Shown piece by piece: positions 31,373 through 39,390 of a DNA stretch of 54,698 bases; within the stretch, counting starts at the first letter, position 1, and each line of letters begins with the position of its first letter. The translations under genes and the position numbers were made by a program. The stretch comes from Acidobacteriota bacterium. GTDB lineage: Bacteria; Acidobacteriota; Terriglobia; Bryobacterales; Bryobacteraceae. The notes under the pieces are model-generated. The model did no database searches, was not told the DNA's origin, and was given only the letters and a program-made list of their open reading frames with translations. The stretch spans positions 1-54,698 of the forward strand of contig VFZW01000005.1 of assembly GCA_016871055.1 (NCBI GenBank), given 5' to 3'.

Positions 31373-34300
31373 ATGAAGCTCGCATTATTCTGCCTGTCCG
31401 CCGCTTTGGCGTTCGCGCAATCGTTCACCGCCCGCATCGTCGGCACGGTTACAGACTCCTCCGGCGCCGTCGTTCCCAACGCCGAAGTCAAGGCTGTCGA
31501 TCAGGCCACCAACCGCACATTCGCGGCGACGACCAATGCCGACGGCAACTACGCCATCAACGAAGCGCCGCGCGGCGAATACTCGGTCGAAGTGGGTGCG
31601 ACCGGGTTCAAACGCTTCTCCCGCAAGGGCATCCAGTTGGCCATCGGCCAGCAGGCGCGCGTCGATGTGCGGCTCGAAGTCGGAACCGTTTCCGAATCGG
31701 TCGAAGTCGTCGCCGATGCGTCGCTGCTTGAAACGGTCGACTCGGTCCTCGGCAAAGTCGTCGACAACAAACGCATCGTCGAGTTGCCGCTCAACACTCG
31801 CAACGTCTACTCGCTGCTCTACCTCACGCCCGGCGTCACCGGCAGCGTCAGCAACACCTACTCGACCGGCTTCGGCATCAACGGCGCGCGCAACTCGATG
31901 CTCGATATTCTCGTCGACGGCGTCTCCACCGCGCACCCCACCGTCAACGGCTTCTCCGGTAACTCGACATTCCCGCCCGTCGAGGCCATCGCCGAGTTCA
32001 AGGTCCTCGGCTCCAATTACGCCGCCGAGTTCGGCCGCAGCAATGGCGGCATCGTCAATGTCGTCTACAAGTCCGGCGGCAACGATCTGCACGGCAGCCT
32101 GTTCGAGTTCCTCCGCAACTCCAAGCTCGACGCCAACGATTTTTTCAACAACCGCCAGGGCCGCGCGCTCGGCAGTTTCAAGCGCAATCAATTCGGCGCG
32201 ATGGTTAACGGCCCTATCAAGAAGAATAAGACCTTCTTCCTCGGCAGCTACGAAGGCCTCCGCGAACGCAGCCTCGGCAACACGCTCACATCGGTTCCGA
32301 CGGCCGAACAGCGCGCCGGTGATTTCTCGCAGACACGCGCCGCCAACCGCGCATTGGTTACGGTTTTCAATCCTTTCTCAACGCGCGCCCAAGGAACCGG
32401 GTTCGTCCGCGACGCCTTCCCCGGCAACGTGATCCCGGCCTCGATGTTCGATCCCGTCGCGCGCAACTCCATGCGTTACTACCCGCAGCCAAACACGGTC
32501 ACCGACGCGAATACCAACCTGAACAACTTCTTCAACACCGGCGCGCGCGGCTTCGATCAGGATCAGTTCGACGGCCGCGTCGATCATAACCTGACCGACC
32601 GGCAACGCATCTTCGGCCGCATCTCCTGGCGACAGAATCTCGACTCCCCTCCGCAGTACTTCCCCGACGATCTCACGATCGCCGAAGGCCGCGTCGAACA
32701 AGGCGTGCGCCAACCGTCGGCGTCCATCGACTACACCAACACTCTCACGTCGGCCACCGTATTTACGGCCCGCTTGGGCTTCTCCCGGTCGCTGTTTGAC
32801 TACCAAAATCAAGGCCTCGGCTTCAAGCCCTCCTCACTCGGCCTTCCGTCCGCCGTCGATGGCGCCGTGGACCGCCAGATGTTCCCGCGTATTGGCCCCA
32901 GCGGATTTGTTTCGCTTGGCGGCAACGATCATCGCTTCAGTACCTTCAATACCTACACGCTGCTTTCGAATCTCTCAACCATCAAAGGCAACCACACGTT
33001 GAAGTTCGGCTGGGAAGGCCGCATGATTCGCGTCAACGTGTGGGAGGCGCGCTCGGCCGGCACGTTCAACTTCGCCGCCGGGTTCACCCAAGGCCCCAAC
33101 CCCAACGCGGCGAGCGCGACCGCGGGGCACAGCCTGGCTTCGCTGCTGCTCGGCACCGGCACGTCCGGAAACGTTCTCATCCGCAACTGGAAGAACGTCG
33201 CCTCACAGAGTTTCTACCACGCCTTCTACGCCCAAGACGATTGGCGCATCACCAAGAAGCTGACCATTAACGCCGGCCTTCGTTACGAAATGGACCTCCC
33301 GCGCACCGAGCGCTACAACCGCTTCAACTGGTTCGAACCGAACGCCAAATCGCCGCTCTCGGGACGCGTGCAGGGCTTCGGCGATATCTACGGCGGCGTG
33401 CGTTTCGTCGGCGTCGATGGCAACCCGCGCACGCAGTTCAACAAGGACCTCAACAACTTCGGTCCGCGCATCGGCTTTGCCTATCAGCTCGATTCGAAGA
33501 CGGTCATCCGCGCCGGCTATGGCCACTTTTTTGGGCCGTCGCGGCAGGCCGCGCAAGGCACCGTCGGGCCGTTCGGCTTCCGCGTCGAGTATCCGTGGGT
33601 TACAACGGTCGACGGCATCACGCCGTTCAACCGCTTGAGCAATCCGTATCCGGAAGGCTTCCGCGCGGTGCCCGGCGCCTCCGACGGCCTGCTGACGCAA
33701 GCCGGCGCGAACCTGCAGGCTTTCCTGCAGGACTCTCCTTCGCCGTGGAACATGATGGGTAACTTCACGATTCAGCGCGAACTGCCCGGCGGTATCCTCC
33801 TCGAATCAGCCTACGTCGCCAACCGCGGATTGTACTTGAGCCGCAGCGGCGAAGGCGGCATGGACCTGAACCAACTCGATCCGCGCCACATGGCGCTCGG
33901 CGCACAACTGAACCAGTCGGCGCCGAATCCATTCTTCGGCGTCGTGAACAACGGGGTGCACCTTTCGCGCAACATCGCGCGGGGTCAACTGCTGCGGCCG
34001 TATCCGCAGTTCACCGAAGTGCAACCGCTCTACGACGCGGGATCGAACTCGATCTACCACGCCATGCAGAACACGTTCCGCCGCCGCTTCTCGCACGGAT
34101 TCCTGTTCGAAGGCAGCTACACGTGGGCCAAGCTGCTCGATACCGGCGACAGCCATCAGAACACCTATGACGTCGCCGCCAGCCGCGCGCTTGCCTCGCA
34201 AGACATCGCCCATCGCATGGTGACGAGCGTCATCGTCGATCTTCCCTTCGGCCGCGGCCGCGCGCTCAACACGGGCGACTCCAAAATCGCCAACGCCATT

Positions 34301-34756
34301 TTTGGCGGCTGGCAGATGAACGGAATCGTCACGCTCGAGTCCGGACTTCCGTTGGCGATGTCGGCCAATAACACCGCGGGATTATTCGGCGCGCGCACGC
34401 AGCCCAACAGCGCCGGCCGCAGCGGGAAGAAAGAAGGCCGCGTGCAGAACCGCCTCGACGCCTACTTCGATCGAACCGCGTACCTGCAGCCCGCGCCGTT
34501 CACGTTCGGAAATTTGAGCCGCTTCCTACCCGACATCCGCAACCATGGCGTCAGCAACTGGGACCTTTCGCTGTTCAAGCAGTTCCAGATTCGCGAAAAG
34601 TACAACCTCCAATTCCGGTCGGAGTTCTTCAACGCATTCAACCGCGCACGCTTTGGCGGGCCGAATACGTCGGTCACGTCCAATCAGGCGGGCGTGATCA
34701 CCAGCCAGGCCAACATTCCGCGGCAGATTCAGTTCGCGTTGAAGCTGCTCTGGTAG
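31373..34756 (+). CDS. Oar-like TonB-dependent receptor with carboxypeptidase-regulatory domain
   Basis: Outer-membrane protein of 1127 residues. Signal peptide [17 protein letters not shown]; carboxypeptidase-regulatory-like (CnaB-type) domain at about 20-105 ([20 protein letters not shown]... [19 protein letters not shown]); TonB plug at about 115-225 ([16 protein letters not shown]); then a long beta-barrel ending LKLLW. These receptors are greatly expanded in Solibacter-type genomes and are thought to take up polymers or peptides, but the ligand is unknown. GAGGTG lies 6 nt upstream of the ATG at 31373, which fixes the start. Confidence 0.92.
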
Positions 34757-34757
34757 G

Positions 34758-35147
34758 CTACTTCAACCGCTCCAAACGTCCCTTGCGCCGCACGATGTTT
34801 TTGTAGTCCCACTGAATATCGCGGGCCTTCCCGAGCCAGCGGCGCAAGTCTTTCACATCGACTTCGCTCACCGTCGTGTAGCGAGCTTCGGCCGCTTGAA
34901 ACTTGCCTTCCTTCCGTAATCCAGCTTCCTCAAACGATTGCCCGCTCCAGAACAGCAACCGCACGCAGTCTTTCAACTTGCTGTAGCCGGTCACCGGATT
35001 CCCATCGAGAAACCATACCGGATGGGCGTGCCAGATTTTGTTTTCGGCCTCGGGGAGGGCTTTATCGATCTCCGCCGCCAGCAGGTCGCAGATCGCGGCA
35101 TCGGCGGCCGAGAGCGCCTTGTTATATTTGGCCGTTTCCGGTTGCAT
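34758..35147 (-). CDS. DUF1801 family protein
   Basis: A 129-residue soluble protein with the DUF1801 pattern: a helical N-terminus (YNKALSAADAAICDLLAAEIDKALPEAENKIWHAHPVWFL, residues about 7-47), GYSKLKDCVRLLFWSGQ and a basic C-terminus (DYKNIVRRKGRLERLK). The family is of unknown function, with a fold related to YdhG/frataxin-like proteins. The start at 35147 coincides with one arm of an inverted repeat, and a -10-like TACCGT lies 6 nt upstream. It is convergent with the receptor gene after 1 bp. Confidence 0.8.
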   Translation of the reverse strand: MQPETAKYNKALSAADAAICDLLAAEIDKALPEAENKIWHAHPVWFLDGNPVTGYSKLKDCVRLLFWSGQSFEEAGLRKEGKFQAAEARYTTVSEVDVKDLRRWLGKARDIQWDYKNIVRRKGRLERLK

Positions 35148-35179
35148 GAGTGTACGGTAGCACGGCTGGCGTACACTCA
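35147..35179. repeat. Inverted repeat in a divergent promoter region
   Basis: Perfect 10-bp arms, TGAGTGTACG (35147-35156) and CGTACACTCA (35170-35179), with a 13-nt spacer. It fills most of the 38-bp region between the DUF1801 gene and the RluA-like gene. The symmetry places a TACACT-like element before both start codons, so it may be a shared operator or a bidirectional promoter. Confidence 0.75.
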
Positions 35180-35185
35180 AACTAC

Positions 35186-36067
35186 ATGCTCAATCGGGGG
35201 TATGCCTACACCACAACCATCAGCAGCAAATACGCGGGTCAAAATCTGCTCCGCCACCTGGCAAGACTTTATCCCCACTCGACGGCAGACGCCTGGCAGG
35301 AAAAGTTGGACAACGGCGAGGTCACGCTCGATGGCGCCGTCGGCACTGGAGCCGAATCGGTTGCTCTCGGCCAAACTTTGGTGTGGAACCGTCCGCCCTG
35401 GATCGAGCCGGACGCCCCTCGACACTTCGACGTGTTGTTCGAAGACGCGGATCTCCTGGCCGTAAACAAACCCAGCGGGCTGCCGACTCTTCCCGGCGGC
35501 GGCTTCATGGGAAACACCTTGTTGCGATGCGTGCAGGATAGATCCCCGGGCGCCAATCCAGTCCATCGACTTGGCCGCGCCACCAGCGGCATCGTCCTCT
35601 TCGCGAAAACGGCGCGGGCCGCATCGAGTCTATTTGCCAACTGGAACACGCCAAAGATTCAAAAGGTCTACCGGGCGTTCGGACAGAACGTGGCCGGTCA
35701 AGACGACTATGAGATCAACGCGCCCATCGGCCGCGTGCCACATCCGCTTATCGGCTCCGTGTGGGCCGCAAGTCCGGAGGGCAAACCGTCGAAGTCCTTG
35801 GCACGAGTCATCGCTCGCACGGCGAGCACAACAACCTTCGAGGTACATCTCCATTCGGGCCGCCCACATCAGATCCGAATCCACTTGGCGTCGATCGGCC
35901 ATCCGCTTGTGGGCGATCCGCTTTATACCGTGGGCGGGCAGCCGCTTGCGGGACTCCCCGGCGACGGTGGATACTTTCTTCACGCGCAATTTCTGCAATT
36001 CCCACACCCGATCGGCGGAAAACAGATTCGGCTGGAAGCGGCGCTGCCTTCCGGCTTCCCAGGTTGA
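35186..36067 (+). CDS. RluA-like pseudouridine synthase family protein with HRLG instead of HRLD
   Basis: A 293-residue protein with an N-terminal S4-like RNA-binding segment (about 14-62, LLRHLARLYPHSTADAW... VTLDG) and an RluA-type synthase domain (80-290): DVLFEDADLLAVNKPSGLPT, PVHRLGRATSGIVLFAKT, KVYRAF, and HSGRPHQIRIHLASIGHPLVGDPLY. The catalytic Asp of RluA enzymes, in HRLD, is replaced by Gly (G130, codon GGC). The rest of the motif is intact, so this is a subfamily trait or a loss of activity rather than random decay. It is followed 2 nt later by greB. Confidence 0.85.
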   Translation: MLNRGYAYTTTISSKYAGQNLLRHLARLYPHSTADAWQEKLDNGEVTLDGAVGTGAESVALGQTLVWNRPPWIEPDAPRHFDVLFEDADLLAVNKPSGLPTLPGGGFMGNTLLRCVQDRSPGANPVHRLGRATSGIVLFAKTARAASSLFANWNTPKIQKVYRAFGQNVAGQDDYEINAPIGRVPHPLIGSVWAASPEGKPSKSLARVIARTASTTTFEVHLHSGRPHQIRIHLASIGHPLVGDPLYTVGGQPLAGLPGDGGYFLHAQFLQFPHPIGGKQIRLEAALPSGFPG

Positions 36068-36069
36068 CG

Positions 36070-36660
36070 ATGCGAAAAGGATTTACACGCAAGCCAAAGT
36101 CCGACGATTCCTCGACGGCGGTCAAGAACTACATCACGCCCGGCGGCCTGCGGCGGCTTCAGGACGAACACCATTTTCTTCTCACCAAGGAACGGCCGGC
36201 CGTGACGGCGGTAGTCACATGGGCCGCCAGCAACGGTGACCGAAGCGAAAACGCCGACTATCAATACGGCAAGCGGCGACTGCGCCAGATCGACGGGCGG
36301 CTGCGCTTTCTCGGCAAGCGTATCGAAGCCGCGGTCGTGGTGGACCCCGAGGCGCCGCGAACCGGGCAAGCGGCGGAGCGTGTGTTCTTCGGCGCGACTG
36401 TTCGCTACTCCAACGCGGAAGGAAGCGAGCGAATGGTGAGTATTGTCGGCGTCGACGAAATCGATCTTGATCGCAACCACATCAGCTGGGTGTCTCCGCT
36501 GGGCCGTGCGTTGCTGAAGTCTACCGAAGGCGACACCGTTGTGCTGCACGCGCCCGGCGGCACGGAGCAGTTGGAGATCATCGAAGTCGCGTATCGGCGC
36601 ATCGAAGTGCAGCCGTACCGCGAACCGGCGGGATCGGAAGCGGCGGGGAAGCGGCGCTAA
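36070..36660 (+). CDS. greB: Transcription elongation factor GreB
   Basis: A 196-residue GreA/GreB-type factor that rescues backtracked RNA polymerase by stimulating transcript cleavage. N-terminal coiled coil (about 20-85) with YITPGGLRRLQDE and the tip region GDRSENADYQYGKRRLRQIDGRLRFL, which carries the two acidic residues for cleavage and is GreB-like rather than GreA-like; then the FKBP-like C-terminal domain (VRYSNAEGSERMVSIVGVDE, ISWVSPLGRALL). The start at 36070 fits the family; longer in-frame readings overlap the RluA-like gene. Confidence 0.92.
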   Translation: MRKGFTRKPKSDDSSTAVKNYITPGGLRRLQDEHHFLLTKERPAVTAVVTWAASNGDRSENADYQYGKRRLRQIDGRLRFLGKRIEAAVVVDPEAPRTGQAAERVFFGATVRYSNAEGSERMVSIVGVDEIDLDRNHISWVSPLGRALLKSTEGDTVVLHAPGGTEQLEIIEVAYRRIEVQPYREPAGSEAAGKRR

Positions 36661-36661
36661 G

Positions 36662-37096
36662 CTACTTTCGCTCGTCCGGCCCGGGCTTGTCGTACGGCGC
36701 GCCAGTGCCAGAGGATCCCATGAAGAACTTCTGCCCGTTGGCCAGCGTCACGTCGCGGCCGTTGGCCCGGTTCGAACGGTCCTTTGCCTGATAGCCGTCG
36801 ACAACGACCACATCGCCGTACTTAATCGAGTCGCGCTTCAAGCCCCGGCGCAGCAGTGAATTCGGCGTGCCGCCCTCGACCATCCAGACTTCCTGCTTGC
36901 CGTCCTTGGTCACCTCGACGTGAATCCACGTATGCGGGTTGATCCACTCCACGCGCACGACGGGCCCTTTCAGAAGCACCGGCCGGTTCGGATCGAATTC
37001 CGCGCCGAAGGCGTGATGCGCCAGGACCGGCGCGACCTTCCACGCAATAATACCCGCCGCCACGGCGAGCGCGAAAACAGTTACCCGAAGTTTCAT
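36662..37096 (-). CDS. DUF6152 family exported protein
   Basis: A 144-residue protein with a signal peptide (MKLRVTVFALAVAAGIIAWKVAPVLA) and the DUF6152 pattern: HHAFGAEFDPNRPVLLKGPVVRVEWINPHTWIHVEV, WMVEGGTPNSLLRRGL, VVVDGYQAKDRSNRANGRDVT and FMGSSGTGAP. The HH after the signal and the repeated His in NPHTWIH may bind a metal. Start overlaps the upstream stop as ATGA. Last gene of a five-gene operon; function unknown. Confidence 0.85.
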   Translation of the reverse strand: MKLRVTVFALAVAAGIIAWKVAPVLAHHAFGAEFDPNRPVLLKGPVVRVEWINPHTWIHVEVTKDGKQEVWMVEGGTPNSLLRRGLKRDSIKYGDVVVVDGYQAKDRSNRANGRDVTLANGQKFFMGSSGTGAPYDKPGPDERK

Positions 37097-38103
37097 TTCT
37101 TCTCGACCTCCTTCTCCAAAATCCGCGCACCCTTCAAGATTCCTTCGAACGAGTAGTTGCCTTCGTGGCATGCGTACTCAAAAACGCGCTGATCGGTCGC
37201 GGGAAACAGAATCTCTCCGCTCCACGGCTTCGTCCACACATTTGAATCTTCGACCGTGAACTGATACCGCAGCGTCTTTGCGTCAATCCGCGAGAATCGT
37301 TCGATTACGTGCAGGTCGCGCGTCGCGCCGAAGAGCGCGGGAGTGTCGTTAAAATTCGTCGTGTCGACAACCAGCGTCGCGCCTTCCCACCGGCCGATCG
37401 AATCGCCCATCCAGCGGCGGATCTCGGGCGGTTCGTGTTTGCCGTTGATGCGGATAATGCGGGCGTCGTGCACCATCTCGTTCAAGATCATCACCGTGTC
37501 GTTCGTCTGCACGATGCGCTTCAAGTTGTTGTACATCACCGGGAGCATCGGCGGCCCCGACGACGTGCCAAACGCCAGCAGGCATCGCTCGGCGAGCGGC
37601 CGCAACTCGGGGTCGTCGTAAGGTCCTGGAGTAATCCCCTCCTTGATCCAGAACGCCACGCCGTCGTTCGGCCGATTGTACTTGGCGCGTTCGCGGGCTC
37701 TCTTAATCGCTTCGGGCGTCATTGCGGGCAGTTGCCCGTTGGCCGGGTTCGTGATGATCGACGTGCGGAACTTGCCGTCGATCTGAAACGCGCCGGTCCC
37801 GCGATCGACCCAGAACGAATTGTATCCGCCGACGTTGCCCGCCGGACCTTGCGAGCCGTCGCCGCCGACCGGAGGCGCGCTACGATTTGGATCGCTCTTC
37901 TGATTCCTCGCCGCGACGATCGCCGCCTCCTGGCGTTCGATCACTCTGGCTTCTTCGGCCGTCAGCGCGAGGCGCTCGCCGAATTTGGCGGGCCGCGTCA
38001 ACGGCGTAAGTGTCGCAATGTCGTAGGTCCCCGATAGATCGGGCCGGGCCTGTCCATAACAGGCGGCGAGCGCGGTCAATACGGAAAGAATTATGCGTTG
38101 CAT
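37093..38103 (-). CDS. Exported protein of unknown function, paralogue of its upstream neighbour
   Basis: A 336-residue protein with signal peptide (MQRIILSVLTALAACYG) starting at 38103, with a perfect AAGGAG 9 nt upstream. It shares with the next gene the blocks SIGRWEGATLVVDTTNFNDTP, a variable loop, VIERFSRIDAKTLRYQFTVEDSNVWTKPW and a final ACHEGNYSF. These blocks look like a beta-rich fold, with conserved Trp, Glu and Asp. This family is common in acidobacterial genomes but I know of no assigned function. It lies 14 bp after the 269-residue gene and overlaps DUF6152. Confidence 0.75.
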   Translation of the reverse strand: MQRIILSVLTALAACYGQARPDLSGTYDIATLTPLTRPAKFGERLALTAEEARVIERQEAAIVAARNQKSDPNRSAPPVGGDGSQGPAGNVGGYNSFWVDRGTGAFQIDGKFRTSIITNPANGQLPAMTPEAIKRARERAKYNRPNDGVAFWIKEGITPGPYDDPELRPLAERCLLAFGTSSGPPMLPVMYNNLKRIVQTNDTVMILNEMVHDARIIRINGKHEPPEIRRWMGDSIGRWEGATLVVDTTNFNDTPALFGATRDLHVIERFSRIDAKTLRYQFTVEDSNVWTKPWSGEILFPATDQRVFEYACHEGNYSFEGILKGARILEKEVEKK

Positions 38104-38117
38104 GGTGACTGGCTCCT

Positions 38118-38927
38118 TTACTGACGAGGCAACGGCTTGCGCCGGTGTTCTCCGAATATCAATTCTTCCACGAACTCGACGCACTTGAAATCCATCAATC
38201 GCGCATCGGGCTCCATACGGCGGTAGAGCGGCAAGGAAATCTTCCACGGCGCCGTGAAGACCTCCGGGTCTTCCATCGTCGCTTCGTAACGAATGTGATT
38301 GGCGCCGTTCAGCGTGAAGCGCTCGGTGACCTTGAGCTGGTTGCTGTGGTGGGTGCCCGAGCGATCGAACCAAGTTTGATCGTTGAAGCCGGCCGTGACG
38401 ATGACGAGCGTATCGCCCTCCCAGCGGCCGACCGACTGCCCCATCCATGAATCGGTCTCGGCCGGGCCGGGATCTTTGAACAAAATATCCCGCACCGCGC
38501 CGGCGTACTCATAGTTCATGAACACCGAGTTCGTGTTCTGAATAATCTGGAACGGGAACGGCATGTAGGTGGCGCGCGGGATGCCGGGCAGATAACACTT
38601 CACCTCCGGGTCGCGGTCGATCCAGTTCTTGCGATTCTCGTCGCGCTTGGCCGCGGCATCGGGCTTGTACGGGATCTTGCCGCCTTCCACGATTCCGATA
38701 CCTCCCGGCACCGATCCCACCGCACCGAGCCGGAGCGTGGGCGCCGAGGCCAGCGGCCCATGCGGGCCGTCGCGCAGCATCAACGAAGCGCGCGCCATAT
38801 GCCGTTCGACATCGTAGTGGGCGGGCCCGATCGCCTGCCAGATGCCGTTGAAATTGGGCTTGCCGTTGGGCAAGCGGGGCTGCGCGACGAGCGCGGCGGA
38901 GAAGAGTATTGGCAGTAGTTTTGTCAT
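38118..38927 (-). CDS. Exported protein of unknown function
   Basis: A 269-residue protein with signal peptide (MTKLLPILFSAALVAQ), then LPNGKPNFNGIWQAIGPAHYDVERH, PRATYMPFPFQIIQ, SVGRWEGDTLVIVTAGFNDQTWFDRSGTHHSNQLKVTERF and MEDPEVFTAPWKISLPLYRR. It is a diverged paralogue of the 336-residue neighbour. Conserved His, Trp and Glu are suggestive of ligand binding, but no catalytic motif is recognised. It is coupled to the DUF6644 gene upstream through TGACATG. Confidence 0.75.
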   Translation of the reverse strand: MTKLLPILFSAALVAQPRLPNGKPNFNGIWQAIGPAHYDVERHMARASLMLRDGPHGPLASAPTLRLGAVGSVPGGIGIVEGGKIPYKPDAAAKRDENRKNWIDRDPEVKCYLPGIPRATYMPFPFQIIQNTNSVFMNYEYAGAVRDILFKDPGPAETDSWMGQSVGRWEGDTLVIVTAGFNDQTWFDRSGTHHSNQLKVTERFTLNGANHIRYEATMEDPEVFTAPWKISLPLYRRMEPDARLMDFKCVEFVEELIFGEHRRKPLPRQ

Positions 38928-38928
38928 G

Positions 38929-39390
38929 TCAGTAGAATGCGACCCAACGGCCCGCGAATGCCACGCCCATCCACAACACGATTGACGCCAGCGCGATGAC
39001 CGGCGCTTTATCGGCGGTTCGTGCTGCGACGCGGCGGCGAACGGTGAGCGTAAAGATGATAGCGAAAATCAACCCGCCTATTTTGTACCAGAACGGAGGA
39101 CTGTAGTAACACTTGATGGCTTCGGACAAGAACATCGGCACACCGGTAAGGATCAACATTGCGATTGAGGCGCGCAGCCAAGGATGCAGCTTGCGCTCCA
39201 GATCAGGCGGCGCTTGATCGCGGAGGCCGAAGCCGAGAAGCCGCAAGTCGAGCACAAACGCCGCTCCGCCCAGCAGCCCGAGCGCAAGAAGATGCACGCA
39301 TTCGATCACCGGAAACATCCACAAGGACTCGCGGACCTTCGTGCCGATAAACGTCGCTTCGAGCGATTGAAAGTACGGTAACAGGTCCAT
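38929..39390 (-). CDS. DUF6644 family membrane protein
   Basis: A 153-residue protein with four membrane helices (about 20-45, 65-85, 95-112 and 128-150). The motif PVIECVHLLALGLLGGAAFVLDLRLLG is typical of DUF6644, with a conserved His in the first helix that could serve as a haem ligand; this is inferred, not seen. Start at 39390, one nt after the stop of the paralogous gene upstream. Homologous to the 163-residue neighbour, so a heterodimer is plausible. Confidence 0.8.
   Translation of the reverse strand: MDLLPYFQSLEATFIGTKVRESLWMFPVIECVHLLALGLLGGAAFVLDLRLLGFGLRDQAPPDLERKLHPWLRASIAMLILTGVPMFLSEAIKCYYSPPFWYKIGGLIFAIIFTLTVRRRVAARTADKAPVIALASIVLWMGVAFAGRWVAFY

Follow-up and report, generated by a model that had tools for sequence, protein, structure and literature searches.

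What does an RluA-family protein do once the residue that defines its chemistry is gone? To our knowledge, pseudouridine synthases are described as having one universal catalytic Asp. In active enzymes this Asp attacks C1' of a flipped-out uridine. The Arg of H-R-L-D fills the space that the base has left, a Tyr either stacks against the base or removes a proton from it, and the Asp is paired with the Arg of GRxHQIR; mutating the catalytic Asp abolishes activity in characterised synthases. The question is raised by a gene in the window, meaning the whole 54,698-nucleotide stretch of an Acidobacteriota (Bryobacteraceae) contig that was analysed. An earlier note on this DNA had claimed that Gly130, encoded by GGC, sits in the position of the catalytic Asp and that the rest of the motif and the later blocks are intact. 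The ORF translation confirms both points: the motif reads HRLGRATSG, and K95, H127, R128, T133, G135, Y162, GRPHQIR (225-231), and GD (243-244) are all kept (Table 1). Of the features of an active synthase, the window protein therefore lacks the catalytic Asp (Gly130) and has the pocket Tyr and Arg (Y162 and R226).

Table 1. The HRLG-type gene, its sequence features, and neighboring genes, in window coordinates.
Feature	Position	Strand or placement	Basis or remark
HRLG-type RluA-family gene, 293 aa	35186-36067	+	ORF translation, Pfam/TIGRFAM-type model matches, start-site alignment
N-terminal region, about residues 1-69	35186-35392	+	aligned to RluD N-terminal domain; R20/D22/R34 of Asp-type relatives missing
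Clade signature RPPWxEP, residues 69-75	35390-35410	+	R69, W72, E74 invariant
HRLGRATSG motif, residues 127-135	35564-35590	+	translation
Gly130 codon GGC, in place of catalytic Asp	35573-35575	+	translation
Tyr162, conserved active-site tyrosine, kept	35669-35671	+	143/143 Gly-type rows
GRPHQIR, residues 225-231, with conserved Arg226	35858-35878	+	R226 in 143/143 Gly-type rows
PGDGGYFLH, residues 258-266, with Asp260	35957-35983	+	carboxylate not seen in Asp-type outgroup
DUF1801 protein gene	34758-35180	-	divergent from HRLG gene, 5 bases between listed start codons
GreA/GreB-type gene	36070-36660	downstream	starts 2 bases past HRLG stop codon
Consecutive ORF pair	37093-38448 and 38118-38927	-	without Pfam match at 1e-5

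The window protein scored 83.4 bits against PF00849 (cut-off, 26.8) and narrowly passed TIGR00005 (194.8 bits; cut-off, 192.7), against which four other members of the clade described below scored 190.9 (L107, just under the cut-off), 193.5, 208.2, and 212.5. It fell far under every cut-off of the RluD, RluC, RluA, and TruC equivalog models, reaching 113.4 bits against 351 for the RluD model NF008385, which was also missed by the RluD-like paralogue of the same genome (L001; 231.3 bits). The start at 35186 is supported by N-x-G at residues 3 to 5, invariant in a 26-row family alignment; the alternative is a longer in-frame start, GTG at 35150. An AlphaFold model of the protein (mean pLDDT, 89.5; pTM, 0.75) had RluA, RluD, and RluC as its closest folds, with a Z score of 24.6 and an rmsd of 2.1 over 202 residues against RluA 2i82 (2i82_B), so that the RluA catalytic-domain fold is predicted to be present. 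These Escherichia coli enzymes, active synthases on 23S rRNA and tRNA, matched the predicted catalytic domain with Z scores of 22.8 to 24.6 and 28 to 34% identity in the structural alignments. RluD carries HRLD where the window protein has HRLG, as do RluA and RluC. The N-terminal region also aligned with RluD (2ist), the alignment covering residues 3 to 293 with a large rmsd (9.6), which may reflect a different domain placement. The window genome contains seven PF00849 genes, the HRLG gene included, and the other six all have the Asp (HRID, HRLD, HRID, and three GRLD genes of the RsuA type). Since three other RluA-type HRID/HRLD genes are present, the HRLG gene is an addition, an extra paralogue beside them.

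Is the Gly a peculiarity of this genome? A contig scan with patterns from the window protein yielded 80 loci of 93 relatives, with titles nearly all Acidobacteria; 77 of these loci read HRLG, L111 and L115 had no aligned piece there, and L117 was garbled, with an unreadable residue. A profile built from 26 clade members (A1) set the clade sharply apart from other RluA proteins, as every complete clade member reached at least 300 bits and no outsider more than 184 bits. At E <= 1e-60, 68 of the 297 Acidobacteriota genomes sampled encode a clade member (64 of 258 among those of good quality); the motif reads HRLG in 61, HRIG in 3, and HRLD in 3 (L200 to L202), and it is missing from 1 fragment (L232). 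It also occurred in a second phylum, that of a genome titled Nitrospirae (G062), where 12 of 118 sampled genomes encoded it (E below 1e-120), all with HRLG. Named strains with the gene include Granulicella mallensis (L083) and Geothrix limicola (L107). Once duplicates, fragments shorter than 250 aa, and matches scoring below 90 bits had been removed, 189 rows made up the final set; the clade contributes 143 Gly-type and 3 Asp-type rows, and the outgroup 43 rows, all Asp-type.

Position 130 is thus Gly in 143 and Asp in 3 of the 146 distinct clade members, all 250 aa or longer, indicating that Gly130 is due neither to chance nor to sequencing error; the outcome that the earlier note had named as refuting its claim, homologues all with HRLD and an error at this base, does not hold. 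The ratio dN/dS (NG86) ranged from 0.078 to 0.378 in 24 pairs of 86 to 98% identity, each gene being used once, and the Gly-type gene is under purifying selection. The HRLG match L013, in genome G018, is reported with one in-frame TGA.

How the three Asp-type members relate to the others was addressed with a tree of 64 representatives (41 Gly-type, 3 Asp-type clade, and 20 outgroup), from which the motif column was omitted. The clade forms one side of a 100/100 branch, with a stem of 1.8 changes per column. L200 to L202 adjoin the Gly-type L203, L195, and L196 with weak support (86/49), and the best tree requires two changes at position 130; a topology with all Gly-type rows as one clade was not rejected (p-AU, 0.369). 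Their Asp may be ancestral or may be a return to Asp; a single loss with L200 to L202 as an early branch would be the simpler account. These three share T204 with 37 of 43 outgroup rows and have I/V138, against S204 and L138 in the Gly type (141 of 143 each); R34 is present in them versus 11 of 143 Gly-type rows. At position 244 they are unlike all other rows, with Glu for Asp (GEQFY, GEEFY, and GEKFY), so that two acidic positions, 130 and 244, differ together.

Presence of the gene is patchy. With clade members taken at E below 1e-80, it was found in 13 of 19 genomes of the genus (the window's own included), 4 of 18 from elsewhere in the family, 0 of 20 from the remaining families of the order, and 0 of 4 elsewhere in the class. 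In 18 genomes chosen for having the HRLG gene, identity of the RluD-like paralogue L001 is 69-71% within the genus but drops to 61-65% for the family's other genera and to 51-58% for f8, another family of the same class (two f8 L001 matches being partial), while identity of the HRLG protein in the same genomes stays flat at 68.4-80.4%, 75.3-80.4%, and 72.5-79.7%, respectively. This is the pattern of horizontal transfer, and within Terriglobia the gene looks to have spread horizontally. A tblastn search of plasmids matched 162 records, all below 60% identity, the best among the matches listed being 34.2%. In the viral collection one contig end (L164, IMG/VR) carries the gene. This contig, which is not clearly viral, ends inside the HRLG gene (80% identical), and an AAA ATPase and subtilase pair with PADLOC IetA/IetS matches (L164, 1106-4570 and 4851-5468) precedes it; the gene may reside in defence or mobile islands.

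Two contigs carry a second, partial HRLG copy after the complete one (L046:5798-6331 and G369:C34:32474-33013, the latter in L167). The HRLG protein of L046, a record titled Bordetella parapertussis, shows no mismatch, in the stretch that was compared, with that of G369, a member of the window genome's family, and the title is probably wrong.

The suggestion in the earlier note that HRLG variants may exist in other lineages proved right: besides the clade in two bacterial phyla, the replacement occurs in plants (PMC8910892) and in RPUSD3 (PMC12716993). The plant survey describes XXHRLG-type RluA proteins (AtRLUA7 and ZmRLUA7) from algae to seed plants, with the Asp-to-Gly change, which its authors consider probably inactive; they assign the first Arg of the motif a role in base flipping and regard such proteins as "not found in other organisms" (PMC8910892). 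These proteins share with the present clade the Asp-to-Gly change in the HRLG motif, with H-R-L kept, whereas our clade is bacterial. The counts above contradict, and correct, the published restriction of HRLG-type RluA to plants.

Vertebrate RPUSD3, a mitochondrial protein of the same family, also carries the Asp-to-Gly change and had no noticeable activity in cells on either rRNA or tRNA (PMC12716993). When it is silenced, 16S mt-rRNA and the large subunit of the mitoribosome are depleted, according to a review that assigns it to the same functional module as RPUSD4 and TRUB2 and mentions an earlier link between its depletion and reduced mRNA pseudouridylation (PMC6414753). Because RPUSD3 is described as a close homologue of RPUSD4, its loss of the Asp was probably independent of that in the bacterial clade. 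RluA-like proteins are also present, by structure entry titles, in trypanosomatid mitoribosome assembly intermediates (7aoi_XP, 6yxx_EC mt-LAF3, and 7am2_BZ), with a like fold and 18 to 20% identity to the window protein. TruB and TrmA are RNA chaperones as well, as stated in PMC12475003. Asp-to-Gly RluA proteins were hence already known in plants and vertebrates, and what is added here is a bacterial clade, of which we found no description in the open PMC literature, a collection that omits most subscription papers.

What has selection preserved in the Gly-type proteins? Twelve residues, K95, H127, R128, R131, G135, Y162, R226, Q229, R231, H233, D244, and H266, are invariant in all 143 Gly-type rows. 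There are 26 positions common to at least 19 of 20 Asp-type representatives, and at 20 of them no more than 2 of the 41 Gly-type representatives deviate; the other six are 21, 129, 130, 140, 224, and 267, where 130 differs throughout since the two sets were defined by it. R69, W72, and E74 of RPPWxEP are specific to the clade, being present in all 143 Gly-type rows and all three Asp-type members. At the N terminus, R20, D22, and R34, which we take to be RNA-contact residues of an S4-like domain, each occur in 41 of 43 outgroup rows versus 3, 0, and 11 of 143 Gly-type rows, respectively; as these residues are mostly lost, RNA binding by the N-terminal region appears doubtful.

The RluA fold and the base-holding pocket residues are kept, and an RNA-binding factor is therefore the most likely identity: we consider it reasonably probable that the HRLG protein is an RluA paralogue that has lost its catalytic ability and has been retained for RNA binding or assembly. 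With Gly130 the first catalytic step would be missing and uridine isomerisation most likely impossible. The protein would bind a structured rRNA or tRNA element via its catalytic-domain cleft, flip or hold a uridine with the glycosidic bond unbroken, and then release the RNA, acting as a folding or assembly factor; inactivity, binding, flipping, assembly role, and the identity of the target are all what we infer. RPUSD3, with the same replacement, no noticeable activity, and an effect of silencing on the large subunit, supports the RNA-binding reading. The link of its depletion to lower mRNA pseudouridylation means that inactivity of Asp-to-Gly proteins is not undisputed. The proposal of a pseudouridine-binding or chaperone protein rather than a synthase, made in the earlier note, fares best of the readings as an inference; its choice of ligand does not carry over, no result favoring pseudouridine over uridine. 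Further observations count against this reading. A simple scaffold would not need Tyr162 and Arg226, whose Asp-linked roles are those given above as background, to be invariant, yet they are; position 260, judging from the alignment, is typically acidic in the Gly type and not in the outgroup; the N-terminal R/D/R residues are mostly lost; and the neighbor genes scanned show no regular tie to ribosome or tRNA biogenesis.

Could another carboxylate have taken over? It is unlikely, in our judgment, that the HRLG protein is still a pseudouridine synthase in which Asp260, Glu74, Asp244, or a bound water replaces Asp130, although the other pocket residues are invariant. Five positions are acidic in at least 90% of Gly-type rows (74, 87, 173, 244, and 260), and only 260 is acidic in the Gly type yet in no outgroup row: D or E stands there in 137 of the 143 Gly-type rows but in none of the 43 from the outgroup, in a column whose alignment is unsure, the outgroup loop varying in length. 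The other 6 Gly-type rows have N, S, T, or A at 260, unfit for an obligatory nucleophile, and the three Asp-type clade members have A/K/E. Glu74, invariant in 143 of 143, favors such an enzyme, but it is equally invariant in the three Asp130 members and is thus not tied to the loss of the Asp. All 43 outgroup rows have Asp244 as well, indicating another job for this residue. The loss of activity on Asp mutation in characterised synthases also speaks against a synthase. For the nearby alternative Asp or Glu that the earlier note had proposed to look for, conservation thus offers an acidic residue at 260 that is typical, and the conservation scan of the 143 Gly-type rows found no gained carboxylate that is strictly invariant.

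Does the genomic context suggest a partner? Of the 143 loci having at least 700 bases of downstream sequence, 11 show a GreA/GreB-type gene in the 1500 bases that follow; all 11 are close relatives, and 9 carry the gene on the same strand. The pairing is local, and the gene was rejected as an operon partner. A relative of the DUF1801 gene was found in one other clade locus (L075). Pfam scans of 20 neighbor ORFs (10 downstream and 10 upstream, long ORFs near 11 loci) returned unrelated families, among them IPP transferase, MFS, GH127, amidase, MCP, PQQ dehydrogenase, and RuBisCO-like, with 6 of 20 unmatched. Clustering of flanking ORFs, whose clusters mix real genes and shadow frames, found no neighbor common to the whole clade, and no Rfam RNA family reached its gathering threshold within 33000-39000. 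No partner gene is suggested by genomic context. The consecutive ORF pair downstream shares a 128-residue stretch (35% identity; E, 5e-18 for the pair) and perhaps represents a tandem pair of an undescribed secreted family.

This context bears on a second alternative, a non-catalytic partner that steers or inhibits an Asp-type RluA paralogue as a heteromer. Asp-type RluA genes in the same genome would supply the paralogue, but RluA-type enzymes act as monomers, a conserved neighbor is lacking as just described, and patchy presence is awkward for an obligate partner; we rate this reading as improbable. Precedents for it are the plant survey, whose authors raise the same possibility (PMC8910892), and the RPUSD3 module with RPUSD4 and TRUB2 (PMC6414753).

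Lower still in our estimate stands a different reaction, on uridine or a modified nucleotide, run by the retained pocket without a C1' nucleophile. It would account for Tyr162 and Arg226 being invariant without Asp130, for the clade-specific invariant residues 69, 72, and 74, and for the near-invariant L138 and S204 that accompany Gly130; against it, the neighbor genes scanned hint at no pathway, and we know of no reaction of the RluA fold other than isomerisation, leaving it very improbable. Finally, a sequencing error or decaying pseudogene, for which nothing speaks beyond the unusual residue, is already refuted by Gly in 143 of 146 members, dN/dS below 0.4 in all 24 pairs that allowed its computation, and an intact frame. 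Taken broadly, a horizontally spread bacterial RluA clade performing Asp-less uridine chemistry, whether with a relocated carboxylate (best candidate, Asp260 in PGDxGY) or by another reaction, and perhaps including the plant HRLG type, is unlikely in our estimate.

Returning to the RNA-binding factor, a natural clade without the Asp, the rest of whose pocket is under strong selection, would separate RNA binding from chemistry, and the Asp-type members L200 to L202 offer a natural comparison. Because named strains carry the gene, the question of whether an Asp-less RluA protein has a job of its own, so far confined to plants and RPUSD3, becomes testable in bacteria.
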